From NCBI GenBank assembly GCA_003282865.1, contig QBYK01000007.1, forward strand, positions 1-63,418: DNA of 63,418 nt, written 5' to 3'. Numbering within the stretch: position 1 is the first letter of the stretch; each line of letters starts with the position of its first letter. Source of the DNA: SAR116 cluster bacterium AG-325-I21. Lineage in GTDB: Bacteria; Pseudomonadota; Alphaproteobacteria; Puniceispirillales; Puniceispirillaceae. The position numbers and the translations under genes are program-made. Under the pieces are notes generated by a model that was not told the DNA's origin, ran no database searches, and saw nothing but the letters and a program-made list of their open reading frames with translations. Below are positions 18,915 through 28,037 of the stretch, one piece after another.

Positions 18915-20021
18915 TTATTTAGCTACGATGCGTCCAACCGGAGTTTTCAAGCCACGCTTTTCGAGCACGCGCTCCGCAAACTGGCCCATTACGCCTTCTG
19001 GACGAATTTGTGGTGCAGCAGCTGGCTTCTTCTTTAAGCTGTAAAGAAATGCTGTTGCATCGCGAAGCAATGATTTTGCGTCGTCGCTGATTGTGAAATC
19101 GAGCTGCAATTTGGTTGTGCCTGACATCGGTGAGTCGTAAAGACTTGCTTTGAGCACTGACTGATCAATTTTTTCCGTTTGGGCCTCAGCCATTGCTGCA
19201 ATCGCATCTGCGTTACCCGGGTTTGCAACAAACTCTTGAGCATCGAGCTCCGCTTCTAGCCAACCCATAACAGCATCAGGACGCTGTGAGATTAGGTCAT
19301 TTAGCATCACCATGAAAGCACCATCTTGAAGACCAAAATCTTCACCAGATGCGGCGCGACGAGCAATGCCTGACTTTACCATCTTAGTAGCTGTTGGTTC
19401 CCAAATGGCTGCCGCATCTAGCTTTCCAGCGCGGAAGTTAGTCGTGATAACCTCAATGTTCTGATTGAGATATTTGGCTGGCTTAACGCCCGCTGACCTG
19501 AAAGCGGCCTGAGCAAACCTGTCAGTGCAAGCGCCATGAGGGGCTGATGTGATTTTTCCATCCATCCACTTAACTGCTGCAACCCCGTCAGCAAATTTCG
19601 GGGCATCATTTTTTACGAGAAAGATATTGCATTGCTGCTTTGATGTACCAAGTGCAGCAACAATACGAATGTCTGTGCCACCACGCTCTGGTAGATATTT
19701 AAAGGTAGAAGCGATCGCAGGCATGTCACCCATGTAACCAATGTGCTGCTTCTCTCCTGCCATTGCATTCACGATAACTGAGCCCTGAAGTCCAACCTGA
19801 AACTCGGCGGTAGAGCCAGCCGGAAGGTGTTTTTTCCAGAAGCCTTTCCCGTTGTTCACGACACCTGTCCATGACTCAGTGTAGTATGGCTGATAGCCGA
19901 TCACCAAATTTACAGCCTCGCCCCTTTTTCCAAAATCAACGCCAGCGTTGGCGGCTGATGCCCCCATCATGACAGCGCCCATTGCCGCCATCTTGACGGA
20001 TGTTTTCATAATACTACTCAT
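18915..20021 (-). CDS. Periplasmic substrate-binding protein, nitrate/sulfonate/taurine class
   Basis: A 368-residue exported protein of the SsuA/TauA/NMT1 type. The N-terminus is a signal peptide with likely cleavage after ASAANA. Then come IGYQPYYTESW, GSVIVNAMAGEKQHIGYMGD, GKITSAPHGACTDRF and AAIWEPTATKMV, all placed as in the family. The ATG at 20021 has GGGAGGA directly upstream, a very strong ribosome site. It is the first gene of the minus-strand operon and divergent from the Rieske operon. The ligand is probably the oxygenase substrate, which I propose is methanesulfonate; the sequence alone does not prove it. Confidence 0.87.
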   Translation of the reverse strand: MSSIMKTSVKMAAMGAVMMGASAANAGVDFGKRGEAVNLVIGYQPYYTESWTGVVNNGKGFWKKHLPAGSTAEFQVGLQGSVIVNAMAGEKQHIGYMGDMPAIASTFKYLPERGGTDIRIVAALGTSKQQCNIFLVKNDAPKFADGVAAVKWMDGKITSAPHGACTDRFAQAAFRSAGVKPAKYLNQNIEVITTNFRAGKLDAAAIWEPTATKMVKSGIARRAASGEDFGLQDGAFMVMLNDLISQRPDAVMGWLEAELDAQEFVANPGNADAIAAMAEAQTEKIDQSVLKASLYDSPMSGTTKLQLDFTISDDAKSLLRDATAFLYSLKKKPAAAPQIRPEGVMGQFAERVLEKRGLKTPVGRIVAK

Positions 20022-20334: not shown

Positions 20335-22725
20335 ATGGATTTTGTAGAAAACAAGCCCAACGGCTCAATCGACAGTGATCATGTGACTATCTCTGAAAAA
20401 GTCGCAGCAAAGGCGTTAGACCAAGCTTTCATTGAGGAACAAAAAAGGATTTTTAAGAATTCTTGGGTTCCCGTGTGCCATGAGTCAGAGCTGCCTGAGC
20501 CATATGATTTTCGTACATCAAGCATCGGTAATGAAAATGTTATTGTCTGCCGAGCGCCAGATGGAAAAATAAACGCGCTCTTGAATGTATGTCCCCACAG
20601 GGGGATGCTTATTGAGCGCCGTCCGCAGGGCAGCTTTCTTGAAGGGCAGGCGTCCGGTAATCCAAAACGAATCACTTGCATGTTTCACGCATGGCAATTT
20701 GATATGAGGGGCAACTGCGTTTACGTTGCGCGCGAAAAAGAGGGCTATCAGGATAGGTTTTGCAAGGATGACGCTGGCCTGAGAAGATTGCGTTGCGAGG
20801 TAAATTTTGGTGGGTTTGTGTGGGTGAATATGAATGATCAGCCAGCCGTGTTCCTGGAGGAATGGGCTGGTGCGGCGTTTTCATCGATTCAATCTCAAAT
20901 TAGTTCTGAGCCGCTTGAGGTGGTTCATTACCACAAAGAAGTTGTCGAAACAGGGTATCAGGAGTTAATGTCTCAGGGCCTATCGTCAATTGATAATGAT
21001 ACTGATGCAACCATTTTTGACTATGGGCATCTCGTGACGACACAAGGCAGCGCAGACAACCAAGATGCAAAAAAGGGTAAATCTTTTCCGTCCCCAAATG
21101 CGGCGTCATGTACAAGCGTTAGGATTTTTCCTGGTTTCGCGTTTAACCTTGATGGACCCACCCTACATGTGTCGACGATTACACCATTAAACGACAAACA
21201 AGTGATGATCGAGCATCGAGGGCTTGCGCCTCAGGCAGATAATAAGGAAGCAAGACACCTTCGGTCAAAATATTATAACGAAAAGTTTGGACCCTTCCGG
21301 CTGCAGGAGCTATCTGAACCTGAACAAAATGAGTTAGACTCGGTTAAGGCGAATAGCTGGTATACTCACTACTACGACGAGTGGTTGCGTTGGATGGATA
21401 AACATCCAAATGGAGAGACACGTATAGTAGATCTGCCAACCTCACGTTCCAAAAACGGTGAAGTTGACGAGCATAGCGGGCTTTCTGGGCCACATATAGT
21501 GGTCGTTGGTGCGAGTCATGCTGGCGTGGCTTTTGTTGACAAGGTCCGAAAAAATGGTTTTGTCGGTCGTCTGACTGTCTTTGACCGTCAGGTCGGTGGG
21601 CCAATGGAGCGACCACCTCTTTCGAAAGGTTTCTTATTGGGCGGTGGGGAGACCGTTGAGTCAAAGTCTTTGTTAAGACAGAAGAAGTGGTACAAAAATA
21701 ATAGGATTAAGCTAAAAACACAGTCTAATGTTGAAACGATTGACACAAAGAAAAAGACCGTAACAGTTAGTAGTGGAGACGTCATAAACTACGACAATTT
21801 GGTAATTGCCAGCGGCGCGATCCCGCGTGAACTGCCTGACACCCAAGGGATGGGTAACGCATTCACATTGCGTCAGCCGTCAGATGCGAATGCGATTCGC
21901 CAGGCCGCAAACAATTCTGACACCGTGGTCATTATTGGTGGTGGCTACATTGGTCTTGAAGTTGCAGCCTCACTGCGAAAAAAAGAAATGACAGTTACCG
22001 TGATAGAAGCTGCCGAGAGAATTTTGGCGAGAGTTGCGAGTAAACCATTAGCGGATCGCTTGACGAAATTGCATGAGGATAATGGGGTTCAAGTGCTCAC
22101 AGGCGTTGGCGTTGATAGCATTAATGCTGAAGCAGGTATTTTTGAGAGTGTCACTCTCACTAGCGGTGAAAAAATTGTTGGAGACATGCTCATCACTGGC
22201 ATTGGTGTTTTTCCCGATAGTACGCTGGCGGCTAGTGCTGGCATCGAAACTCAGCGAAAAGATGGTGGGGCTATTCTTGTGGACGAGGCTATGAGGACAA
22301 GTGAAAAAGACGTATTTGCCGTCGGTGATGTTGCGTTGCGCCGTGACCAACTGTTGGCGATTGAGTCCGTCCATAACGCTCAGGAGACAGCGGCTGTAGC
22401 AGCAGCGGCAGTTACAGGGTCAATAGCGCCAACTATACAAACTCCGTGGTTTTGGTCCGACCAATACGACGTAAAATTGCAATCAGTTGGCGTAGTCCCG
22501 ATTAATGATGACGATGTGTATCAGGTCGCTCGACCTGGTAAACGCGAAGGTGCGGTGTCTTTTTGGAGCTACAGAGGTGATGACTTGGTAGCAGTCGAGG
22601 TTGTAAATGACCCTGCAACATATATGGAGGCTCGGCAGTGCCTTGACACAAAACAATCTCCAGATCCAGAACAGATATCAAACCCGTCTTTCTCACCCAT
22701 AGATAGTGGTGGAGCGAGATCCTAG
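20335..22725 (+). CDS. Rieske-only oxygenase alpha paralogue fused to FAD ferredoxin reductase
   Basis: 796 residues in two parts. Residues 1 to about 370 are a Rieske oxygenase alpha subunit. The cluster ligands are C86, H88, C115, H118, spaced CxH-x26-CxxH; most families have 15-17 residues there, and the long spacer is what I recall for methanesulfonate monooxygenase MsmA. The catalytic half is recognisable (VVHYHKEVVETGY, RIFPGFAFNLDG, KFGPF), but relative to the paralogue at 24990 it has a 16-residue deletion exactly where the two iron-binding His should be, and the late Asp is replaced (FRLQELSEP). Residues about 385-796 are a putidaredoxin-reductase-type domain: FAD fold VVVGASHAG, NAD fold IIGGGYIGLEVAA, and second FAD block VFAVGDVA. 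Inferred job: take electrons from NAD(P)H and present them on a Rieske cluster to a partner subunit. Confidence 0.88.
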   Translation: MDFVENKPNGSIDSDHVTISEKVAAKALDQAFIEEQKRIFKNSWVPVCHESELPEPYDFRTSSIGNENVIVCRAPDGKINALLNVCPHRGMLIERRPQGSFLEGQASGNPKRITCMFHAWQFDMRGNCVYVAREKEGYQDRFCKDDAGLRRLRCEVNFGGFVWVNMNDQPAVFLEEWAGAAFSSIQSQISSEPLEVVHYHKEVVETGYQELMSQGLSSIDNDTDATIFDYGHLVTTQGSADNQDAKKGKSFPSPNAASCTSVRIFPGFAFNLDGPTLHVSTITPLNDKQVMIEHRGLAPQADNKEARHLRSKYYNEKFGPFRLQELSEPEQNELDSVKANSWYTHYYDEWLRWMDKHPNGETRIVDLPTSRSKNGEVDEHSGLSGPHIVVVGASHAGVAFVDKVRKNGFVGRLTVFDRQVGGPMERPPLSKGFLLGGGETVESKSLLRQKKWYKNNRIKLKTQSNVETIDTKKKTVTVSSGDVINYDNLVIASGAIPRELPDTQGMGNAFTLRQPSDANAIRQAANNSDTVVIIGGGYIGLEVAASLRKKEMTVTVIEAAERILARVASKPLADRLTKLHEDNGVQVLTGVGVDSINAEAGIFESVTLTSGEKIVGDMLITGIGVFPDSTLAASAGIETQRKDGGAILVDEAMRTSEKDVFAVGDVALRRDQLLAIESVHNAQETAAVAAAAVTGSIAPTIQTPWFWSDQYDVKLQSVGVVPINDDDVYQVARPGKREGAVSFWSYRGDDLVAVEVVNDPATYMEARQCLDTKQSPDPEQISNPSFSPIDSGGARS

Positions 22726-22809
22726 AGAGGATTTAAATAGTTTTCTTTGACCTGTATGGTCAACAAGCGAACATTTTTGTATGCGCAGGCTTGATACTAA
22801 ATCTCAAAC

Positions 22810-23331
22810 ATGGACTCAGAAAGTAATGATATGGAAAATAATTCTTCAGCAGACATTGAAAGAAAGATTGAGAAAACAATTTATCAGGCTGCACTGGCCC
22901 TAGATAAAAACAACTGGGCTGATTGGTTCAAGCTTTGTGATGACTCATTTTTCTATTCGATAACGTCTTTTAGCCCAGAAATTAGCAAAGATATGACCTA
23001 TTTTAGCGGCGATAAAAAAGAGCTAATTGGCCTCATGGAAATGCTACCTAAGCATAATACCGACCACTCGCCGCTGCATAGGCATACGTCTGTTTATACC
23101 ATAGATGTGTCTGACGATGGTAAAACAGCGGAATCCGTCAGCTCGGTTGTAATCTACCAAAATATGCTCGATGGGATCAACTCTCACTTAGACTCTGGGG
23201 AAAGCAGACTTTTTGTGATTGGAAAGTACCATGACAAATTTTTGATAAACGACGGTGTGCCTAAGTTTATTAACCGCGAAACAAAAATAGATAATAGGCG
23301 CCTTGATAAAGGCTCGCATTGGCCTCTCTAG
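22810..23331 (+). CDS. Rieske oxygenase small (beta) subunit, MsmB-like
   Basis: 173 residues with the SnoaL/NTF2-like look of ring-hydroxylase beta subunits: an N-terminal helix (IYQAALALDKNNWADWFKLC), a His-rich middle (DHSPLHRHTSVY) and the typical end RETKIDNRRLDKGSHWPL. Beta subunits mainly hold the alpha oligomer together. It lies 84 bases after the alpha/reductase gene and 52 before the ferredoxin gene, in the same direction. The presence of a beta subunit supports a true oxygenase rather than two orphan electron carriers. The start at 22810 is followed by a second ATG at 22831. Confidence 0.8.
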   Translation: MDSESNDMENNSSADIERKIEKTIYQAALALDKNNWADWFKLCDDSFFYSITSFSPEISKDMTYFSGDKKELIGLMEMLPKHNTDHSPLHRHTSVYTIDVSDDGKTAESVSSVVIYQNMLDGINSHLDSGESRLFVIGKYHDKFLINDGVPKFINRETKIDNRRLDKGSHWPL

Positions 23332-23383
23332 TTGAAAACTGCGGTGTTTGGACTGAGAATAAATTTGCAAAGAAAGTAAAAAC

Positions 23384-23788
23384 ATGACTTGGACAAAAGT
23401 CTGTGAGAAAAGTGACATACCCGAGGGTTCAATAAAAAAAGTTTGGGCACGGATCGGTGGCGGTATTCCAATTGCTGTTGCTCACCATAAAAGAGGTTTT
23501 GTTGCGATACCTCCAGTTTGTCCTCATCTAGAGGAACCATTAGAAGAGTCTGGCCTAGTAATGGGATGTAAACTCACGTGCACTAAGCACCTATGGTCAT
23601 GGGACTTGGAGACGTTAGAGTTGCAGGACGAAGCAGAATTGCCACTCAAAACGTACGACGTAAAAGTCGAGGGTAGCAACATCATGGTTTATGTTACCGA
23701 ACAACTTGAATACAATTTTGACGAAGATGAAGACATTGATGAAAACACTTTTTTTGACGACGATGATGACGATGATGACGAGTGGTAG
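23384..23788 (+). CDS. Rieske ferredoxin, MsmC-like, with poly-Asp tail
   Basis: 134 residues. Residues 1-110 form a small Rieske ferredoxin with ligands C46, H48, C66, H69 (CPHL and CTKHLW, 17 residues between). It resembles the soluble ferredoxins of toluene monooxygenase (T4moC) and of methanesulfonate monooxygenase (MsmC). The last 25 residues are almost wholly Asp/Glu, ending in eight Asp in a row before EW, coded by GAC/GAT repeats at 23757-23780. It should carry electrons from the FAD domain to the Rieske alpha subunit. The acidic tail is not a usual part of such ferredoxins and may steer docking. Confidence 0.88.
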   Translation: MTWTKVCEKSDIPEGSIKKVWARIGGGIPIAVAHHKRGFVAIPPVCPHLEEPLEESGLVMGCKLTCTKHLWSWDLETLELQDEAELPLKTYDVKVEGSNIMVYVTEQLEYNFDEDEDIDENTFFDDDDDDDDEW

Positions 23789-23941
23789 GCAAAAGCAATC
23801 ATAAGGAATATTTTGACTAAATTTCACAGCAATCGAGATTGTGGCGTAAGGTCAACAAAATGATTTATAAATTTGCTTACTTAAATAATACCAACATTTG
23901 ATAGCGCGCTGAACACTTCAGCCAAAATCTGATGGAACTGA

Positions 23942-24787
23942 TTGAGAGAGAATTTGTTGGACGATTCAAGTCAATGGCCGCCTGTAAACATTTTTGACAC
24001 CAGCCATTTTAGACAAGCAAGAATTGAAGCGCATAACGCTCTATTCTGGATGGCTCGGGGAACTAATAGTTTCTTGGACTCGACGCCGGATAATGGGCAC
24101 TTAAGCTTATTTTGGCACACGGCTTCGGGCAATTTTCGAACGAGATCTTTCGATGGGGATCTTCAAATTGGCCTAAGTTTTCCCGATTTGGAGTTGTATT
24201 TTTGTGAAGGTGGTCAAAAGGTGCCTCACAGCTTTTGGTTGGATGATCGAACACCCGCATTTGCAGAGGCGTGGTATTTAGTTGAATTGCTGCACAGAGA
24301 TCGCGACCAATCTAAATTTTCTACTGACCTGCCTTTTTCCTCACCGTATATGCTAATGGGGGACACTGAAGACCACAACGCTTCGGCTTACAAACCACAG
24401 CTAAATGCTTTGAATGGGTGCGTGTTGAAGGCAAACGAAATATTGCGGAGTGTATCTCATGCAGTTGCTCAGCAACCTCAATTTACAAAATGCCGACAAT
24501 GGATAACATTAGAACCAGAGTCATTTGCTTTAGTTCTCAATGTTGTCGTAGACAACGAGTCAGTCAAATTGCCATTAATCGGAATGTGTCTGGGTGATCA
24601 TTTACGCCCGGCACCGTTTTTCTTTGTAAAAGCTAGTGAAGCGAGAGTTGGATTCAAAACTCATCTACTTGATTACGACCCCAGAACGTTGTTGTCATTA
24701 AAGTCTATTGTTAATGAAAGCATGACTGACGGCGAACTTGTCGAGAATCTTGTTGGTAAGTTTATTGACGCCAATCATCCAAAATAA
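23942..24787 (+). CDS. Conserved-looking protein of unknown function inside the Rieske operon
   Basis: 281 residues that I do not recognise. There is no signal peptide, no clear membrane helix and no Cys cluster. It is rich in aromatic and acidic residues, with blocks such as EAHNALFWMARGTNSF, GHLSLFWHTASGNFRTRSF and LGDHLRPAPFFFVKASEARVG. The start is uncertain: TTG at 23942, or TTG at 23957 with GAGAGA 7 bases before; no in-frame ATG fits. It lies between the ferredoxin gene and the catalytic alpha paralogue, co-directional, so it may be an assembly factor or an extra subunit. That is inference from position only. Confidence 0.7.
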   Translation: MRENLLDDSSQWPPVNIFDTSHFRQARIEAHNALFWMARGTNSFLDSTPDNGHLSLFWHTASGNFRTRSFDGDLQIGLSFPDLELYFCEGGQKVPHSFWLDDRTPAFAEAWYLVELLHRDRDQSKFSTDLPFSSPYMLMGDTEDHNASAYKPQLNALNGCVLKANEILRSVSHAVAQQPQFTKCRQWITLEPESFALVLNVVVDNESVKLPLIGMCLGDHLRPAPFFFVKASEARVGFKTHLLDYDPRTLLSLKSIVNESMTDGELVENLVGKFIDANHPK

Positions 24788-24989
24788 TGTTCGGTGTGGT
24801 GACAAATTTAGGTAGCCAGGCGAAAACTTGCAATGATATTAGATTTTAACTATTAGCCGTTTATTTTTGTTTTCGAAGATCTTCGTTGACATCGGCCTCG
24901 GCAAAGTGGAAAATTCACACCTATTTGGCCATTCAGCCCGCAAGAATATGCACAGAACGGCATCAATTTAATTGCGATGGGAGTGCAAA

Positions 24990-26078
24990 ATGCCACCAAG
25001 AAACCACAAAAATTGGTTAAAAGTTCCAAAGATCGAACATATTTCAAGCGCGTGTTACAACAATCATAGCATCTACGAGCAGGAAATTGAGCACATCTTC
25101 GCGAAAGTGTGGGTCCCTATGTGTCATTTTAGCGAAATGTCCAATGATGGTGACTATCGTTCGACGCAAATTGCTCACCAAAATGTGGTCGCGGTGAACA
25201 CCAAGGGTATTGTCAAAGTGTTTCTCTGCCCGTCGATTGACCGGCCTGCCGGTAACGGGTTCGACACATCCGGATTAAAAGAGTTACACAGCGAACTGAA
25301 ACACGGCGGTATGGTTTGGACGACTCTTGACCCAAACCCAACCCAGAGCGTTGAAGAGTGGACTTGCGGGGCATTTGACTGCATTGCAGATGCCATTGAT
25401 TCCGAAGATATGGAGGTTTTTCATTATCACAAGGCAGTTATCGACACTAATTACAAGTTATGGCATGACACAAATAGTGAATTCTATCATGATTTTATGC
25501 ATTATTTTAACCGAGTGTCTGGGTTCAATGATGAGTATTTCGCGAGAAAAAACATCCCGTTTGATAATGGTCACGTAAACGTAAGTAGCTTCACGGTAAA
25601 CTACGAAGAATATGATGGGTTTGAAGATCGTGGGGAGCTATCCTTTCCAAATTTGCCACCAAACCAGTGGTATATGGTAGATCTTTTCCCGGGGTTTAAC
25701 TTTAACCTTCGCGGTAGTGCTTACAGAAGTGACACTGTCACCCCGCTGGGGCCAAACAAGGTGCTTATTGAGTTTAGGGGCTATGGGCTTAAAAAAGATA
25801 CTCCAGAAGAGCGCCAGACGCGCATAAAACACCACAATTCCATTTGGGGACCATTTGGCCGTAACCTCCATGAGGATTTGATTGGCGTTGCGGGCCAAGG
25901 GACTACAATGCGAGAAGGCACAGAAGCTCGGAATATCTTGCATGGTCGGCATGAAAATTCAACGATACATGACGAAGTTGGCATGAGACACTATTATGAA
26001 GCTTGGGGAAAATTCCTCGGGGTGTCGCCGGCTAATCCTCTCGGTCTGGCGACTGACGATATGATCGCTGCTGAGTGA
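24990..26078 (+). CDS. Catalytic-only Rieske oxygenase alpha paralogue lacking its Rieske centre
   Basis: 362 residues, clearly a paralogue of the alpha part of the 20335 gene (shared WVP-C-H, EVFHYHKAV, DLFPGFNFNLRG, IWGPFG). The Rieske ligands are gone: C80 survives, but the following His is Ser (CPS), and about 46 residues covering the second CxxH are deleted. The iron site is kept: E164, H167 and H171 in SEFYHDFMHYF, and D296 in GRNLHEDLIG, which fit the 2-His-1-carboxylate triad. The ATG at 24990 has GGGAG 8 bases upstream, so it is chosen over the TTG at 24972. Inferred job: bind substrate and oxygen, and receive electrons from the Rieske cluster of the other paralogue. A strong terminator follows. 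Confidence 0.88.
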   Translation: MPPRNHKNWLKVPKIEHISSACYNNHSIYEQEIEHIFAKVWVPMCHFSEMSNDGDYRSTQIAHQNVVAVNTKGIVKVFLCPSIDRPAGNGFDTSGLKELHSELKHGGMVWTTLDPNPTQSVEEWTCGAFDCIADAIDSEDMEVFHYHKAVIDTNYKLWHDTNSEFYHDFMHYFNRVSGFNDEYFARKNIPFDNGHVNVSSFTVNYEEYDGFEDRGELSFPNLPPNQWYMVDLFPGFNFNLRGSAYRSDTVTPLGPNKVLIEFRGYGLKKDTPEERQTRIKHHNSIWGPFGRNLHEDLIGVAGQGTTMREGTEARNILHGRHENSTIHDEVGMRHYYEAWGKFLGVSPANPLGLATDDMIAAE

Positions 26079-26171: not shown

Positions 26172-27116
26172 TTAGCCCGCTGATGTGGTTGATTTATGAT
26201 AAAGAAAATTTTGCAGTTCACTGTTCTTCGCAAGCGCACGCCCAACCTCCTCAGTTATTTTTGTTATTGGAATGGTTGTTTCACTTTTGACCCAGAATAG
26301 CCCTATTCCTTTTCGTATTATTGGGTCTTTTAGCAAAAGCGCTTTAGTTCCTGTGTAGAGCCCCGGCATTCGAGTATAGTGTGAGGGAATAACCGTACAA
26401 AGTTCTGTAAACTGAGTTTGAAACATTAAATGCAGAATTGACTCCGATTCAATTTTTGGTACGACACTCCTCCCCGCAGCGGTGAACGTTTGATCGATCA
26501 CTGAACGCTCGTACATCGATTTTCGCAGTAATGCCAGTGGGAGGTCTGCAGCCTCTTCCCAGGTAATATCACTCATATTTTCAAATTTAAACGAATCCGG
26601 CACCAACAAGCTCCAAGTTTCCTCGAAAACTGGTAATGCTTCACACCAAGGCATTTCATCAGATTGGTCTATGTACGTTATTGCACAATCAATCGAATAA
26701 TTGTCCAAACTGGTTTTAAGCTCGTTATTCCCAACAAACCTTACGTCGACAGACACTAGCGGGTAGGCTTTTCTTATACGTTGTAAAATAATTGGCAGTA
26801 CTGGGGACATTGAGGGAATTGCGCCAAGGCGAATGGTTCCACTCAAACTGTCCTGCATTTCTGCTATATTGTCACGCATTGCAGTGCAGTTGGCCAAGAT
26901 TAATCGAGCCCAATAAGCAACACGCTCTCCCTCTTCTGTAATTCCATAGAGGCGTTGGCCGCGTCCCCTCTTAAATAAGGTAACTCCTAATTCAAATTCT
27001 AATTGCTTTATGCCATTTGATAAGCTGGGCTGTTTCACATTACAACGAGCCGCTGCTCTTCCAAAATGGTCTTCTTCAATTACAGCGATAAGATATTCAA
27101 GCTGTTTAAGAAACAT
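26172..27116 (-). CDS. LysR-family transcription regulator
   Basis: 314 residues with the N-terminal helix-turn-helix (HFGRAAARCNVKQPSLSNGI) and a periplasmic-binding-like sensor domain (GTIRLGAIPSM). The ATG at 27116 starts the standard MFLKQLEYL opening; the longer ORF adds MKGNG. It is divergent from a TSUP exporter gene and convergent with the Rieske operon, so it is the best candidate for control of the sulfonate cluster. It resembles CbbR/CysB-like members in general shape, but the inducer cannot be read. Confidence 0.85.
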   Translation of the reverse strand: MFLKQLEYLIAVIEEDHFGRAAARCNVKQPSLSNGIKQLEFELGVTLFKRGRGQRLYGITEEGERVAYWARLILANCTAMRDNIAEMQDSLSGTIRLGAIPSMSPVLPIILQRIRKAYPLVSVDVRFVGNNELKTSLDNYSIDCAITYIDQSDEMPWCEALPVFEETWSLLVPDSFKFENMSDITWEEAADLPLALLRKSMYERSVIDQTFTAAGRSVVPKIESESILHLMFQTQFTELCTVIPSHYTRMPGLYTGTKALLLKDPIIRKGIGLFWVKSETTIPITKITEEVGRALAKNSELQNFLYHKSTTSAG

Positions 27117-27278
27117 CCCATTGCCTTTCACGTTTGCATTTTGATTTTAGCACACAAAATAGCTTTGATTCGTTTATTCACAAAAACCGGGCTTTTGGTC
27201 CATCAAAACCTTAGGAATATAACACATTATCACCTATGTTTGAATCCTCCGAGTTAATAATACCGTGTTTTTTTGTGA

Positions 27279-28037
27279 TTGTTTGGGATAGCAGTGTCAT
27301 TCATTTTTGTTTTTTTGTGCGGTCTTTTTTCGGGTGCTCTGATAGGAGCTGCGGGGATTGGTGGTGTGGTATTGGTGCCACTACTTGTATACGGTGCAGG
27401 TTATAGCATTCATATTAGCATCGCAGCAGCAGTGTCATCTTTTATTTTTTCTGGGTTGATTGGAACATTTGCGTATGCGCGGCGGGGTGAGGTCAACTGG
27501 CTCCAACTAACTTATTTGACGGCCGGTGCGATTCCGGGAGCCTTATTGGGCACACATACGCTCGCAAAAATTAATGCCGACACTCTTAAACTATTTATTG
27601 CTATCGTTTTAATTTTTGCAGCGTGCAGACAGATTGCTAATTTAAAGGCTGCGCGTCATCATAGCCGATCAACTCCCTCAAATATAAGCCTGTTGTTAGT
27701 TGGTTTTTTAACTGCGGGCCTGTCTGTGCTCAGTGGGACTGGTGGGCCGCTTGTTTTAGTTCCAATATTAACCTTTTTGTCAATGCCATTGCTCGCAGTG
27801 ATTGGTTTATCACAGGCCATTCAGATACCAATTGCTGTATTTGCTACGATCGGGAATGAATGGTCAGGAATAATCCAGTGGGAAATTGTGGCTCTTTTGT
27901 CACCAGGTCTGGTTTTGGGAACATTTCTGGGTGCAAAAGCCTCTGAACGCTTGCCAGTTGATAAGATAAGGAATTTAGTTGCTTTTTTGTTGCTTGGATC
28001 TGGTATTTACATGCTGATAAACGTAATTTTCGTCTAG
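27279..28037 (+). CDS. TSUP (TauE/SafE) family anion exporter, short form
   Basis: 252 residues with about eight hydrophobic segments and two family repeats: GAAGIGGVVLVPLLV near the N-terminus and LSGTGGPLVLVPIL in the second half. TSUP proteins export sulfite, sulfoacetate and similar anions after sulfonate breakdown. It lies between LysR and the C1 genes. A second, longer TSUP gene is at 32118. A role in sulfite release is inferred from context. The start codon is not ATG-clear and the N-terminus may differ by a few residues. Confidence 0.82.
   Translation: MFGIAVSFIFVFLCGLFSGALIGAAGIGGVVLVPLLVYGAGYSIHISIAAAVSSFIFSGLIGTFAYARRGEVNWLQLTYLTAGAIPGALLGTHTLAKINADTLKLFIAIVLIFAACRQIANLKAARHHSRSTPSNISLLLVGFLTAGLSVLSGTGGPLVLVPILTFLSMPLLAVIGLSQAIQIPIAVFATIGNEWSGIIQWEIVALLSPGLVLGTFLGAKASERLPVDKIRNLVAFLLLGSGIYMLINVIFV

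Follow-up and report, generated by a model that had tools for sequence, protein, structure and literature searches.

Reciprocal loss of metal sites in two alpha proteins of an MsmABCD-like operon from a SAR116 bacterium

Can two alpha-like proteins, one with the Rieske ligands and the other with the iron site, do the work of a single methanesulfonate monooxygenase alpha subunit (MsmA)? The question is raised by an operon on contig QBYK01000007.1 of SAR116 cluster bacterium AG-325-I21, of which a stretch of 63,418 nucleotides (the window) was analysed. A preliminary description of this DNA had reported a Rieske oxygenase alpha subunit split into two reciprocal half-active paralogues, here named alpha1 and alpha2, and both open reading frames were located where it had placed them (Table 1). 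In this work the two proteins were compared with canonical MsmA, with their relatives in other genomes and with homologues from phages.

Metal sites of alpha1 and alpha2

Canonical MsmA (about 420 aa) carries both metal sites in one chain in all 70 sequences of the ligand census. The alpha1 protein was rightly described as active in its Rieske half only, but the ferredoxin reductase fused to it had been overlooked; the top NCBIfam match of this domain is an HcaD-type reductase, under the curated cut-off. The ligands C86, H88, C115 and H118 were verified in alpha1 together with the 26-residue spacer of MsmA. Among 13 non-redundant alpha1 sequences (excluding G012, with a broken frame, and G006, present as fragments at contig ends) the Rieske ligands are complete and the MsmA-type motif CxH-x26-CxxH is present in 13/13, and the iron set is found in 0/13 (by column: E164 0, H167 0, H171 1, D296 0). 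The 16-residue gap over the iron helix consists of 10 + 6 residues in the comparison with alpha2, and the third iron ligand is missing, the segment with D296 being absent. The alpha1 of G020 has part of the iron helix with the ligands replaced and, on its alignment, looks like an intermediate.

The mirror image is found in alpha2. All four iron-site residues (E164, H167, H171 and D296) remain in 15/15 host alpha2 sequences, in which the Rieske set is absent and the CxH-x26-CxxH motif occurs in 0/15; the 110 non-redundant phage homologues likewise have the iron site only, without the Rieske set (110/110). The deletion in the cluster region of alpha2 is real, but its net size in the alignment is 49 residues, not about 46 as first estimated. 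Host alpha2 retains a Cys-Pro (C80-P81), which may be the old C86-P87, depending on the alignment, but none of the three remaining Rieske ligands. Translation of alpha2 could start at 24990 from ATG or at 24972 from an upstream TTG.

The same division is seen over the 196 columns with a conservation of 95% or more among canonical MsmA sequences. Of these invariant columns alpha1 retains 80% in the Rieske domain (89% in the cluster core) and 33% in the catalytic domain, and alpha2 retains 37% and 94%, respectively, with 94-95% of the catalytic columns kept across host and viral alpha2. Because of this retention the chemistry of alpha2 is probably unchanged from that of canonical MsmA. The AlphaFold2 (AF2) model of alpha2 (pLDDT 82.9) has a confident N-terminal domain without the cluster subdomain, and its 50 best matches listed from the PDB are all Rieske oxygenase alphas (prob 1.00, TMq 0.65-0.72). 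The full-length alpha1 model is poor (pLDDT 58.1, pTM 0.44); within it, residues 151-320 reach pLDDT 66-90 per block of ten, with one block at 46. The reciprocal loss, each paralogue lacking what the other keeps, is thus confirmed in 13/13 alpha1 and 15/15 host alpha2 aligned with 70 canonical MsmA, and is stronger than the preliminary description put it. Judged by sequence, neither alpha1 nor alpha2 alone is a complete MsmA, and the pair together holds both sites.

Table 1. Features of the operon and its flanks (positions in the window)
Feature	Position	Strand	Evidence
Divergent sulfonate-binding protein, MsmE/SsuA-like	18915..20021	-	TIGR01728 E 3.8e-24, under cut-off
alpha1-reductase fusion of 796 aa with Rieske half, catalytic relic and MsmD-like ferredoxin reductase	20335..22725	+	ORF; Pfam Rieske 43-132, Pyr_redox_2 387-686, Reductase_C 705-786
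Rieske domain of alpha1 (C86, H88, C115, H118; CxH-x26-CxxH)	20461..20730	+	Pfam; ligands in 13/13 alpha1
Catalytic relic in alpha1, roughly residues 184-345, iron site absent	20884..21369	+	Alignments; 33% of the catalytic columns invariant in canonical MsmA retained
Fused FAD/NAD(P)H ferredoxin reductase domain	21493..22692	+	PF07992 387-686, PF14759 705-786
Beta subunit, MsmB-like, SnoaL-like fold	22810..23331	+	PF13577 E 2.4e-5
Rieske-type ferredoxin, MsmC-like	23384..23788	+	PF00355 E 1e-10
orfX, conserved msm-cluster protein	23942..24787	+	Homologues in split-system loci
alpha2, Rieske-less catalytic alpha, 362 aa	24990..26078	+	PF00848 139-342; no Rieske set
Place of missing [2Fe-2S] cluster subdomain (about residues 82-95 of alpha2)	25233..25274	+	Alignments
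Bridging Glu and iron His of alpha2 (E164, H167, H171)	25479..25502	+	15/15 host alpha2, 110/110 viral
Third iron ligand of alpha2, D296 (GRNLHEDL)	25875..25877	+	15/15 host, 110/110 viral
LysR-type regulator	26172..27131	-	Domain match
TauE/SafE-type sulfite exporter	27279..28037	+	PF01925 E 1.1e-40

Operon, co-occurrence and proposed electron path

The operon resembles MsmABCD in the Rieske spacer of alpha1, in the catalytic residues and conserved columns of alpha2, in its beta, ferredoxin and reductase, and in the sulfonate-binding protein and sulfite exporter close by. It differs in having the two sites on separate proteins and the reductase joined to the Rieske half, whereas msmD is a separate gene in the systems treated in passages of PMC4433239. 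No Pfam or NCBIfam match was obtained for orfX, which has homologues (27-38% in BLAST) in 14/70 canonical loci. A homologue of the sulfonate-binding protein adjoins alpha1 in 8/12 relative stretches fetched, the remaining stretches being short or cut.

The genome loci cover 80 relatives, the best of the 98 that were confirmed. Among 61 genomes of the window's family both genes are present in 12, neither in 49 and one alone in 0, in keeping with the expected co-occurrence of the paralogues; the counts weigh less than they suggest, as the genomes are related and both genes lie in one cluster. A complete alpha subunit elsewhere in the same genome had been named as speaking against the split, and none was found among the 12 two-gene genomes, where the other matches at E <= 1e-10 are 25-32% identical; this absence rests mainly on the four genomes that are 98-100% complete, the other eight being at 57-80%. 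A hidden complete MsmA was rejected for the 12 genomes, mainly on the strength of these four. Of the Rieske-domain matches of the window's genome, two lie in the operon and the others on C106 and C11, one each.

Comparison of the close pair formed by the window and G014 gave dN/dS of 0.01 for the alpha2 catalytic domain, 0.06 for the alpha1 Rieske domain, 0.03 for the reductase domain and 0.22 for the relic catalytic domain of alpha1, which shows that both alpha1 and alpha2 are under purifying selection. Could the operon nevertheless be dying, or be a product of assembly error or annotation? The window's genome is a draft (79.7% complete), and the alpha1 reading frame is split in two in G012, 1 of the 12 genomes with both genes, but the same architectures recur in 13 + 15 non-redundant sequences, drawn from several assemblies that include a single-contig genome, and dN/dS is low; we regard this explanation as having next to no chance. 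Pseudogene decay was ruled out by the ligand census and the low dN/dS.

We consider it likely that alpha1 and alpha2 form a hetero-alpha methanesulfonate monooxygenase in which the alpha1 cluster reduces the alpha2 iron across the subunit interface; here we infer the complex, the electron path and its direction, the substrate and the subunit ratio. Electrons from NADH would enter alpha1 at its fused FAD domain, would be passed to the [2Fe-2S] cluster of alpha1, probably via the MsmC-like ferredoxin, and would cross the interface through E164 of a neighbouring alpha2 to the non-haem iron (H167, H171, D296), where methanesulfonate would be hydroxylated to give formaldehyde and sulfite. The passage of electrons between neighbouring alphas, assumed in the preliminary description, is supported by the transfer between subunits via a bridging Glu that is reported for a relative, CntA (E205; abstract and passages of PMC7948474), and E164 of alpha2 lies at the same place. 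With a catalytic domain left as a relic in alpha1 and the base of the Rieske domain closed up in alpha2, both could still fit into one ring with a common beta. The geometrical argument that a three-fold ring cannot alternate two kinds of alpha evenly, and hence that the stoichiometry should be unusual, is sound; a mixed three-ring of 2:1 or 1:2 would contain exactly one alpha1-to-alpha2 contact in the productive sense.

The census, the co-occurrence, the lack of a canonical MsmA among the matches in the 12 genomes, the dN/dS values, the intermediate-looking alpha1 of G020, the alpha2 model, the CntA precedent and the neighbouring genes for sulfonate uptake, sulfite export, beta and ferredoxin speak for the hetero-alpha enzyme. 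The poor full-length model of alpha1, its broken frame in G012, the phage copies of alpha2 that have no alpha1 nearby and the conceivable direct reduction of alpha2 by the Rieske ferredoxin count against it. In the last case alpha2 would form its own ring, with its iron reduced by the MsmC-like protein, and alpha1 would be no more than a reductase carrying an alpha-like vestige. The operon does encode a separate Rieske ferredoxin, and the catalytic-like half of alpha1 is degenerate, but the four cluster ligands in 13/13 alpha1, the retained cluster core and the low dN/dS of the Rieske domain are not expected of a useless extension, and canonical systems pair the ferredoxin with a full alpha (msmABCD, passages of PMC4433239). 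We therefore find this arrangement improbable.

Phage homologues and origin of the two halves

The "MsmA" of phage HMO-2011 is 73% identical to alpha2. Viral loci were taken from 80 stretches, the best of 379 confirmed among the matches listed, and from all 64 stretches of a second query, which yielded 137 full-length ORFs; nine ORFs below 340 aa were left out (six with the iron motif, three without, all lacking the Rieske motif). Removal of copies identical in the last 300 residues reduced the 137, in which HMO-2011 occurs twice (L118, L210), to the 110 of the census. The Rieske-less tandem copy of family f33 gave no match when used as a query against viral sequences. All 137 phage ORFs stand without alpha1 nearby, and no homologue of beta, ferredoxin, reductase or alpha1 was found beside them in the fetched stretches, up to 6 kb on each side (BLAST E <= 1e-8). 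As phages bear alpha2 in this way, it must at times be made with no alpha1 beside it. Neither gene occurs alone in the 61 family genomes, but homologues of one paralogue regularly found without the other, which the preliminary description had named as speaking against the split, do occur outside cells.

The absence of other recognisable msm genes near the phage copies would also fit a Rieske-independent role for alpha2 (other iron chemistry, a regulator or a decoy) no longer served by alpha1. We think such a role more improbable still, as E164 and the iron ligands are invariant in host and virus and the catalytic columns are retained, including the Glu that in CntA is reported to carry the cross-subunit transfer from the Rieske cluster.

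A first FastTree run did not resolve the deep order (supports 0.29-0.79; as rooted, phage proteins and alpha2 were not one group) and was replaced by IQ-TREE analyses of subsets (23/70 canonical and 17/110 viral sequences in a quick tree, 25/70 and 35/110 in a second tree). In the second tree host alpha2 is a single clade (100/99) nested within the phage sequences (99/94, 99/99), and the branch leading to alpha2 plus phages is long (0.58). A main phage clade that excludes host alpha2 was rejected (AU p 0.0097), as was one origin of Rieske loss shared with a second phage group (AU p 0.00018), the groups in both tests having been named after a tree had been seen; the Rieske centre thus appears to have been lost separately in the second group. 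It is alpha1, not alpha2, that clusters with canonical SAR116 MsmA (SH-aLRT 87, not starred, quick tree). The two halves seem to differ in origin, with alpha1 coming from the host MsmA side and host alpha2 placed among phage proteins. The preliminary description therefore holds for the two reciprocal half-active paralogues but not as a simple split of one alpha, since the halves appear separate in origin.

Hosts are the usual source of phage metabolic genes, and alpha2 may instead have arisen in hosts by duplication and cluster loss and then been acquired by phages; unsampled host lineages could carry a deeper alpha2, and the long branch and the late naming of the tested groups leave room for this. 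The nesting of host alpha2 inside phage sequences, the two AU rejections with the separate Rieske loss, and the grouping of SAR116 MsmA with alpha1 argue the other way, and we regard a host origin of alpha2 as unlikely. Taken together, the data are compatible with an enzyme half viral in origin, for and against which we see the chances as evenly balanced: marine phages would have evolved, at least twice, a Rieske-less subunit that functions only when plugged into the host alpha ring and fed by host Rieske centres; SAR116 would have captured one such subunit, after which its own MsmA would have lost the iron site and been fused to the reductase, becoming a dedicated donor in an obligate host and phage enzyme.

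Related systems and significance

The statement that no enzyme built this way has been described is not supported. In passages of PMC4408171 the Rieske domain of NdmC/NdmD is separated from the oxygenase and fused to a reductase, and a 2015 paper noted that IMCC1322 and phage HMO-2011 have a second MsmA that is Rieske-less (passages of PMC4433239). The literature passages on these systems mention neither the reciprocal loss nor a phage origin. The caffeine N7-demethylase NdmC/NdmD/NdmE of Pseudomonas putida CBB5 has, in the same passages of PMC4408171, a catalytic subunit without Rieske centre and the Rieske domain on a reductase fusion, for which alpha2 and alpha1 are the counterparts; it differs in the FMN and extra [2Fe-2S] cluster of NdmD and in the participation of the GST-like NdmE. 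No GST-like domain is among the listed Pfam/NCBIfam matches of the eight proteins scanned here, and the alpha1/alpha2 system has a relic alpha chain on its Rieske half, a Pyr_redox_2-type reductase and a beta. By analogy it would work like NdmCDE, and it is not filed as a member. The HMO-2011 "MsmA" and its viral-contig homologues share the Rieske-less, iron-intact state of alpha2, but differ in standing without homologues of the partner proteins.

Assemblies that combine two types of alpha also exist among alpha3alpha'3 Rieske oxygenases, of which we take NdmA/NdmB to be an example. Passages of PMC12445004 name the alpha3alpha'3 form; in NdmA/NdmB, however, each alpha bears both sites (passages of PMC4408171).

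Rieske oxygenases are the textbook example of electron passage from one subunit to an adjacent one, usually of the same kind. In a natural enzyme that has donor and acceptor on separate chains, the productive interface would be fixed and the transfer step could be tested chain by chain. The pair also clearly illustrates how two proteins may degenerate reciprocally following a possible viral gene capture. Our results suggest that the marine phage "methanesulfonate monooxygenase" genes, until now taken as putative MsmA, encode the acceptor half only and depend on host partners, and surveys that count either half as "msmA" could misjudge which organisms are able to use methanesulfonate.

Metal sites and gene setting of the proposed split enzyme

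The preliminary description proposed that the alpha subunit of a Rieske oxygenase is divided between two reciprocal half-active paralogues, the Rieske-bearing alpha1 and the iron-site-bearing alpha2, and this observation was upheld by comparison with canonical methanesulfonate monooxygenase alpha subunits (MsmA), which hold both metal sites in one chain. In the alignment, alpha1 of the window possesses C86, H88, C115 and H118 with a 26-residue spacer, a length regarded as MsmA-specific (PMC4433239), and lacks the iron helix and the third-ligand stretch; alpha2 is its mirror image in ligand content, both in the alignment and in the ligand census. The non-redundant census found all Rieske and iron ligands in 70/70 canonical MsmA, the Rieske set in 13/13 and the iron set in 0/13 alpha1 sequences (one has His at the H171 column, alpha2 numbering), and the iron set in 15/15 and the Rieske set in 0/15 host alpha2 proteins, in which a persisting Cys-Pro may be the former first Rieske Cys. 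Site retention is complementary as well: across the 196 columns in which canonical MsmA sequences show 95% conservation or more (78 in the Rieske domain and 118 in the catalytic domain), alpha1 retains 80% of the Rieske-domain and 33% of the catalytic columns, and alpha2 37% and 94%, respectively. A conserved N-terminal block (N5, W9, P13, S20, Y23, alpha2 numbering) is mostly gone from alpha1 but persists in host alpha2 and in almost all of the phage proteins. In the alpha1 of genome G020, which looks like an INTERMEDIATE, the iron helix is largely there with its ligands substituted (E to K, H to Q, H to K); G020 is the earliest alpha1 branch in the quick tree (a branch flagged as long), and loss of the iron ligands in alpha1 seems to have preceded the deletion.

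Open reading frames of the split oxygenase operon
Feature	Position	Basis
alpha1-reductase fusion, 796 aa	20335-22725	ORF reading
beta subunit	22810-23331	ORF reading
Rieske ferredoxin	23384-23788	ORF reading
orfX	23942-24787	ORF reading; no family match
alpha2	24990-26078	ORF reading

Pfam places a Rieske domain at alpha1 residues 43-132, followed by a complete FAD/NAD(P)H reductase (PF07992, 387-686; PF14759, 705-786), and the PF00848 catalytic domain is the sole match in alpha2. Upstream of the operon, on the opposite strand, lies a sulfonate-binding-protein homologue (TIGR01728, score below cut-off), and past it are what we take from the translations to be ABC permeases and ATPases. A LysR regulator and a TauE/SafE-type exporter (Pfam) are located 3' of the operon, and the ORFs beyond the exporter are presumably PanB, formate-THF ligase and FolD. 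The setting is similar to that of the Filomicrobium msm operons, which have a sulfite exporter and 3-methyl-2-oxobutanoate hydroxymethyltransferase close by (PMC4433239). The orfX gene accompanies the split enzyme, is present in 14/70 canonical msm loci at 27-38% identity, and is a candidate assembly or accessory factor. The window's genome also encodes a separate, unrelated Rieske protein, VanA-like by eye (G000:C106:1255-1503, stretch L002; 368-aa open frame).

Distribution and selection

The window's family is represented by 61 genomes, 12 of which carry alpha2. With the alpha-half of alpha1 as query, matches at E <= 1e-12 were obtained in 33/61; alpha1 proper (at least 62% identity; an 83% fragment in G006) occurs in exactly the 12 alpha2 genomes, and the matches in the remaining 21 (at most 41% identity, chiefly across the Rieske part) are taken to be other oxygenases. 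Co-occurrence of the paralogues was thereby confirmed, with both genes in 12 genomes, neither in 49 and one alone in none, in a set that does not represent independent trials since the genomes are related and the genes clustered. A 385-genome sample of the class contained alpha2 in three genomes, every one in the window's family. Named-genome loci detected with the alpha1 profile (best 80 of 98 fetched) comprise 70 canonical MsmA and 10 fusions; alpha2 is present in eight of the fusion loci. Of the remaining two, one is a contig of 3.5 kb and one a truncated stretch, from genomes matched to G035 and G002, both of which hold alpha2. No Rieske-less copy was found in the 70 canonical loci (fetched at 3.5-21 kb). 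Nor did a complete alpha subunit come to light elsewhere in the same genomes: canonical MsmA was not found in any of the 12, matches at E <= 1e-10 other than alpha1 and alpha2 being 25-32% identical, and this includes the window genome (79.7% complete) and G002, G010, G011 and G020 (98-100% complete).

The dN/dS ratios, quoted for the window and G014 only because synonymous sites are saturated in most more distant pairs, were 0.01 for the alpha2 catalytic part, 0.06 for the alpha1 Rieske part, 0.03 for the reductase and 0.22 for the alpha1 relic catalytic part, which is relaxed yet still maintained.

Several loci depart from the usual arrangement. In G012 the alpha1 fusion is split into two overlapping frames (L035, 15956-16978 and 16900-18372), real or an assembly error, and its first part has the same Rieske-plus, iron-minus pattern in the alignment. 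G002 contains two copies of the split system (L033, L034); in each, some 11 kb separates alpha1 from alpha2, and the two genes are on different strands. Two MAGs, labelled Planktomarina (L113) and Marinovum (L114), have split systems that fall close to one sequence from SAR116 (L112) in the trees and are either mis-binned contigs or recent transfers.

Predicted assembly and parallel cases

The AlphaFold2 model of alpha2 (37 sequences) has a pLDDT of 82.9, and ten-residue blocks over 21-140 average 90-97, so the model predicts that the base of the Rieske domain closes up even though the cluster subdomain is missing. Its 50 listed PDB matches are all Rieske oxygenase alpha subunits, with terephthalate dioxygenase, salicylate 5-hydroxylase and CntA among the top ones. 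The full-length alpha1 model is poor (pLDDT 58.1), and within it the relic catalytic domain (151-320) has blocks of 66-90, with one exception at 46. In CntA the cluster-iron distance is 44 angstrom within a chain and 12.2 angstrom between neighbours, and mutation of E205 abolishes activity (PMC7948474); the equivalent position in alpha2, next to the iron ligands, is also a Glu (E164). In the simplest arrangement, a mixed ring, the alpha1 cluster would face the alpha2 iron, and having the reductase and the Rieske half in one chain would make the route of the electrons shorter. By geometric reasoning, a 2:1 or 1:2 three-membered ring has exactly one contact in which an alpha1 cluster faces an alpha2 iron, and so one working site; even-numbered rings are possible, though unlike the C3-symmetric assemblies of structurally characterised systems (PMC12445004). 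The proposed reading as a two-part enzyme is well supported at the sequence level.

The earlier statement that no described enzyme is built this way needs correction, as NdmC/NdmD, with a Rieske domain separate from the oxygenase and joined to the reductase (PMC4408171), is a precedent and the nearest working analogue, and Rieske-less MsmA has been remarked upon (PMC4433239): two IMCC1322 proteins bear the MsmA annotation, with the Rieske motif in just one, and the motif is missing from many GOS, virome and phage HMO-2011 copies. The available parts of PMC8547437 and PMC12262181 report msmA in SAR116 and leave the split unmentioned, and no description of the reciprocal arrangement or of a phage origin was found in the accessible open-licence literature. 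In family f33 of the class, an intact alpha adjoins a second one whose Rieske motif is incomplete or absent but whose iron site is retained (DLYHEFMH and GRNVPEDA), in G243, G113 and G417 (L264-L267); in a fourth case, G465 (L268), the second alpha is apparently at a contig end. The change is graded, the cluster region being mutated in G113 (one His lost) and missing in G243 and G417. Rieske-less partners next to Rieske-bearing alphas therefore seem to recur.

Phage relatives and origin of the halves

A tblastn search of 50,697 phage records gave two matches to alpha2, both HMO-2011 (73% identical), whose host is Ca. P. marinum IMCC1322; the phage gene has been described as a putative MsmA with a speculated role in initial methanesulfonate oxidation (PMC4928673). 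IMG/VR contains at least 379 stretches with confirmed relatives of alpha2; the best 80, together with 64 from the alpha1 profile and HMO-2011, yielded 137 full-length ORFs. Homologues regularly found without the other paralogue were to count against the pairing, and phage alpha2 is of this kind outside cells, with no alpha1 found in the fetched stretches (at most 6 kb each side). The Rieske motif is missing from all 137 ORFs, all of which retain E..H...H and GRNLHEDL. The alpha1-profile viral search used two patterns, one of them the Rieske motif VCPHRGM, and could therefore have brought up a complete MsmA of alphaproteobacterial type from viruses, but the motif was present in none of the viral ORFs read; gammaproteobacterial MsmA deviates at both patterns (VCPHRGN, W[TM]PVCHE in examples), and a full viral copy of that type may have been missed. 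Homologues of beta, ferredoxin, reductase, orfX or the binding protein were not detected in the viral stretches (E <= 1e-8, up to 6 kb each side; a divergent beta could escape). In three examples the adjacent genes are of phage type: L147 has terminase and endolysin, L218 has PhoH, exonuclease, single-strand-binding and tape-measure proteins, and L260 has endolysin together with a structural protein of the virion. The motif EFYHDYLH marks a second phage group, which makes up 10/110 non-redundant viral sequences (L207, L218, L223, L224, L227, L242, L244, L246, L252, L260).

In the quick tree of shared columns, alpha1 forms a clade (13 rows, support 99) and groups with the canonical MsmA of SAR116 MED-G04 (support 87, under the starred level). 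In the careful tree (IQ-TREE), host alpha2 (15 rows) is one clade (100/99) inside phage sequences, nested in a 31-row (99/94) and a 23-row clade (99/99). The main phage group as a clade excluding host alpha2 was rejected (AU p 0.0097). All Rieske-less sequences as a single clade were also rejected (p 0.00018), because the second phage group (8 sequences on the tree) sits among gamma- and deltaproteobacterial canonical MsmA (100/99); as judged from these placements, phages lost the Rieske centre independently in this group. One versus two origins of that group gave p 0.333. Cut positions are alike and filler sequences unlike between the phage groups in the alignment, the pattern to be expected if a single structural subdomain was excised separately in each. 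Since the groups compared were named after the first tree had been seen, the branch to alpha2 and the phages is long (0.58), and an earlier FastTree run left the deep order of these groups unresolved, passage of alpha2 from phage to host is considered fairly likely rather than certain. The probable viral source of one half of the enzyme is the most surprising part of these results.
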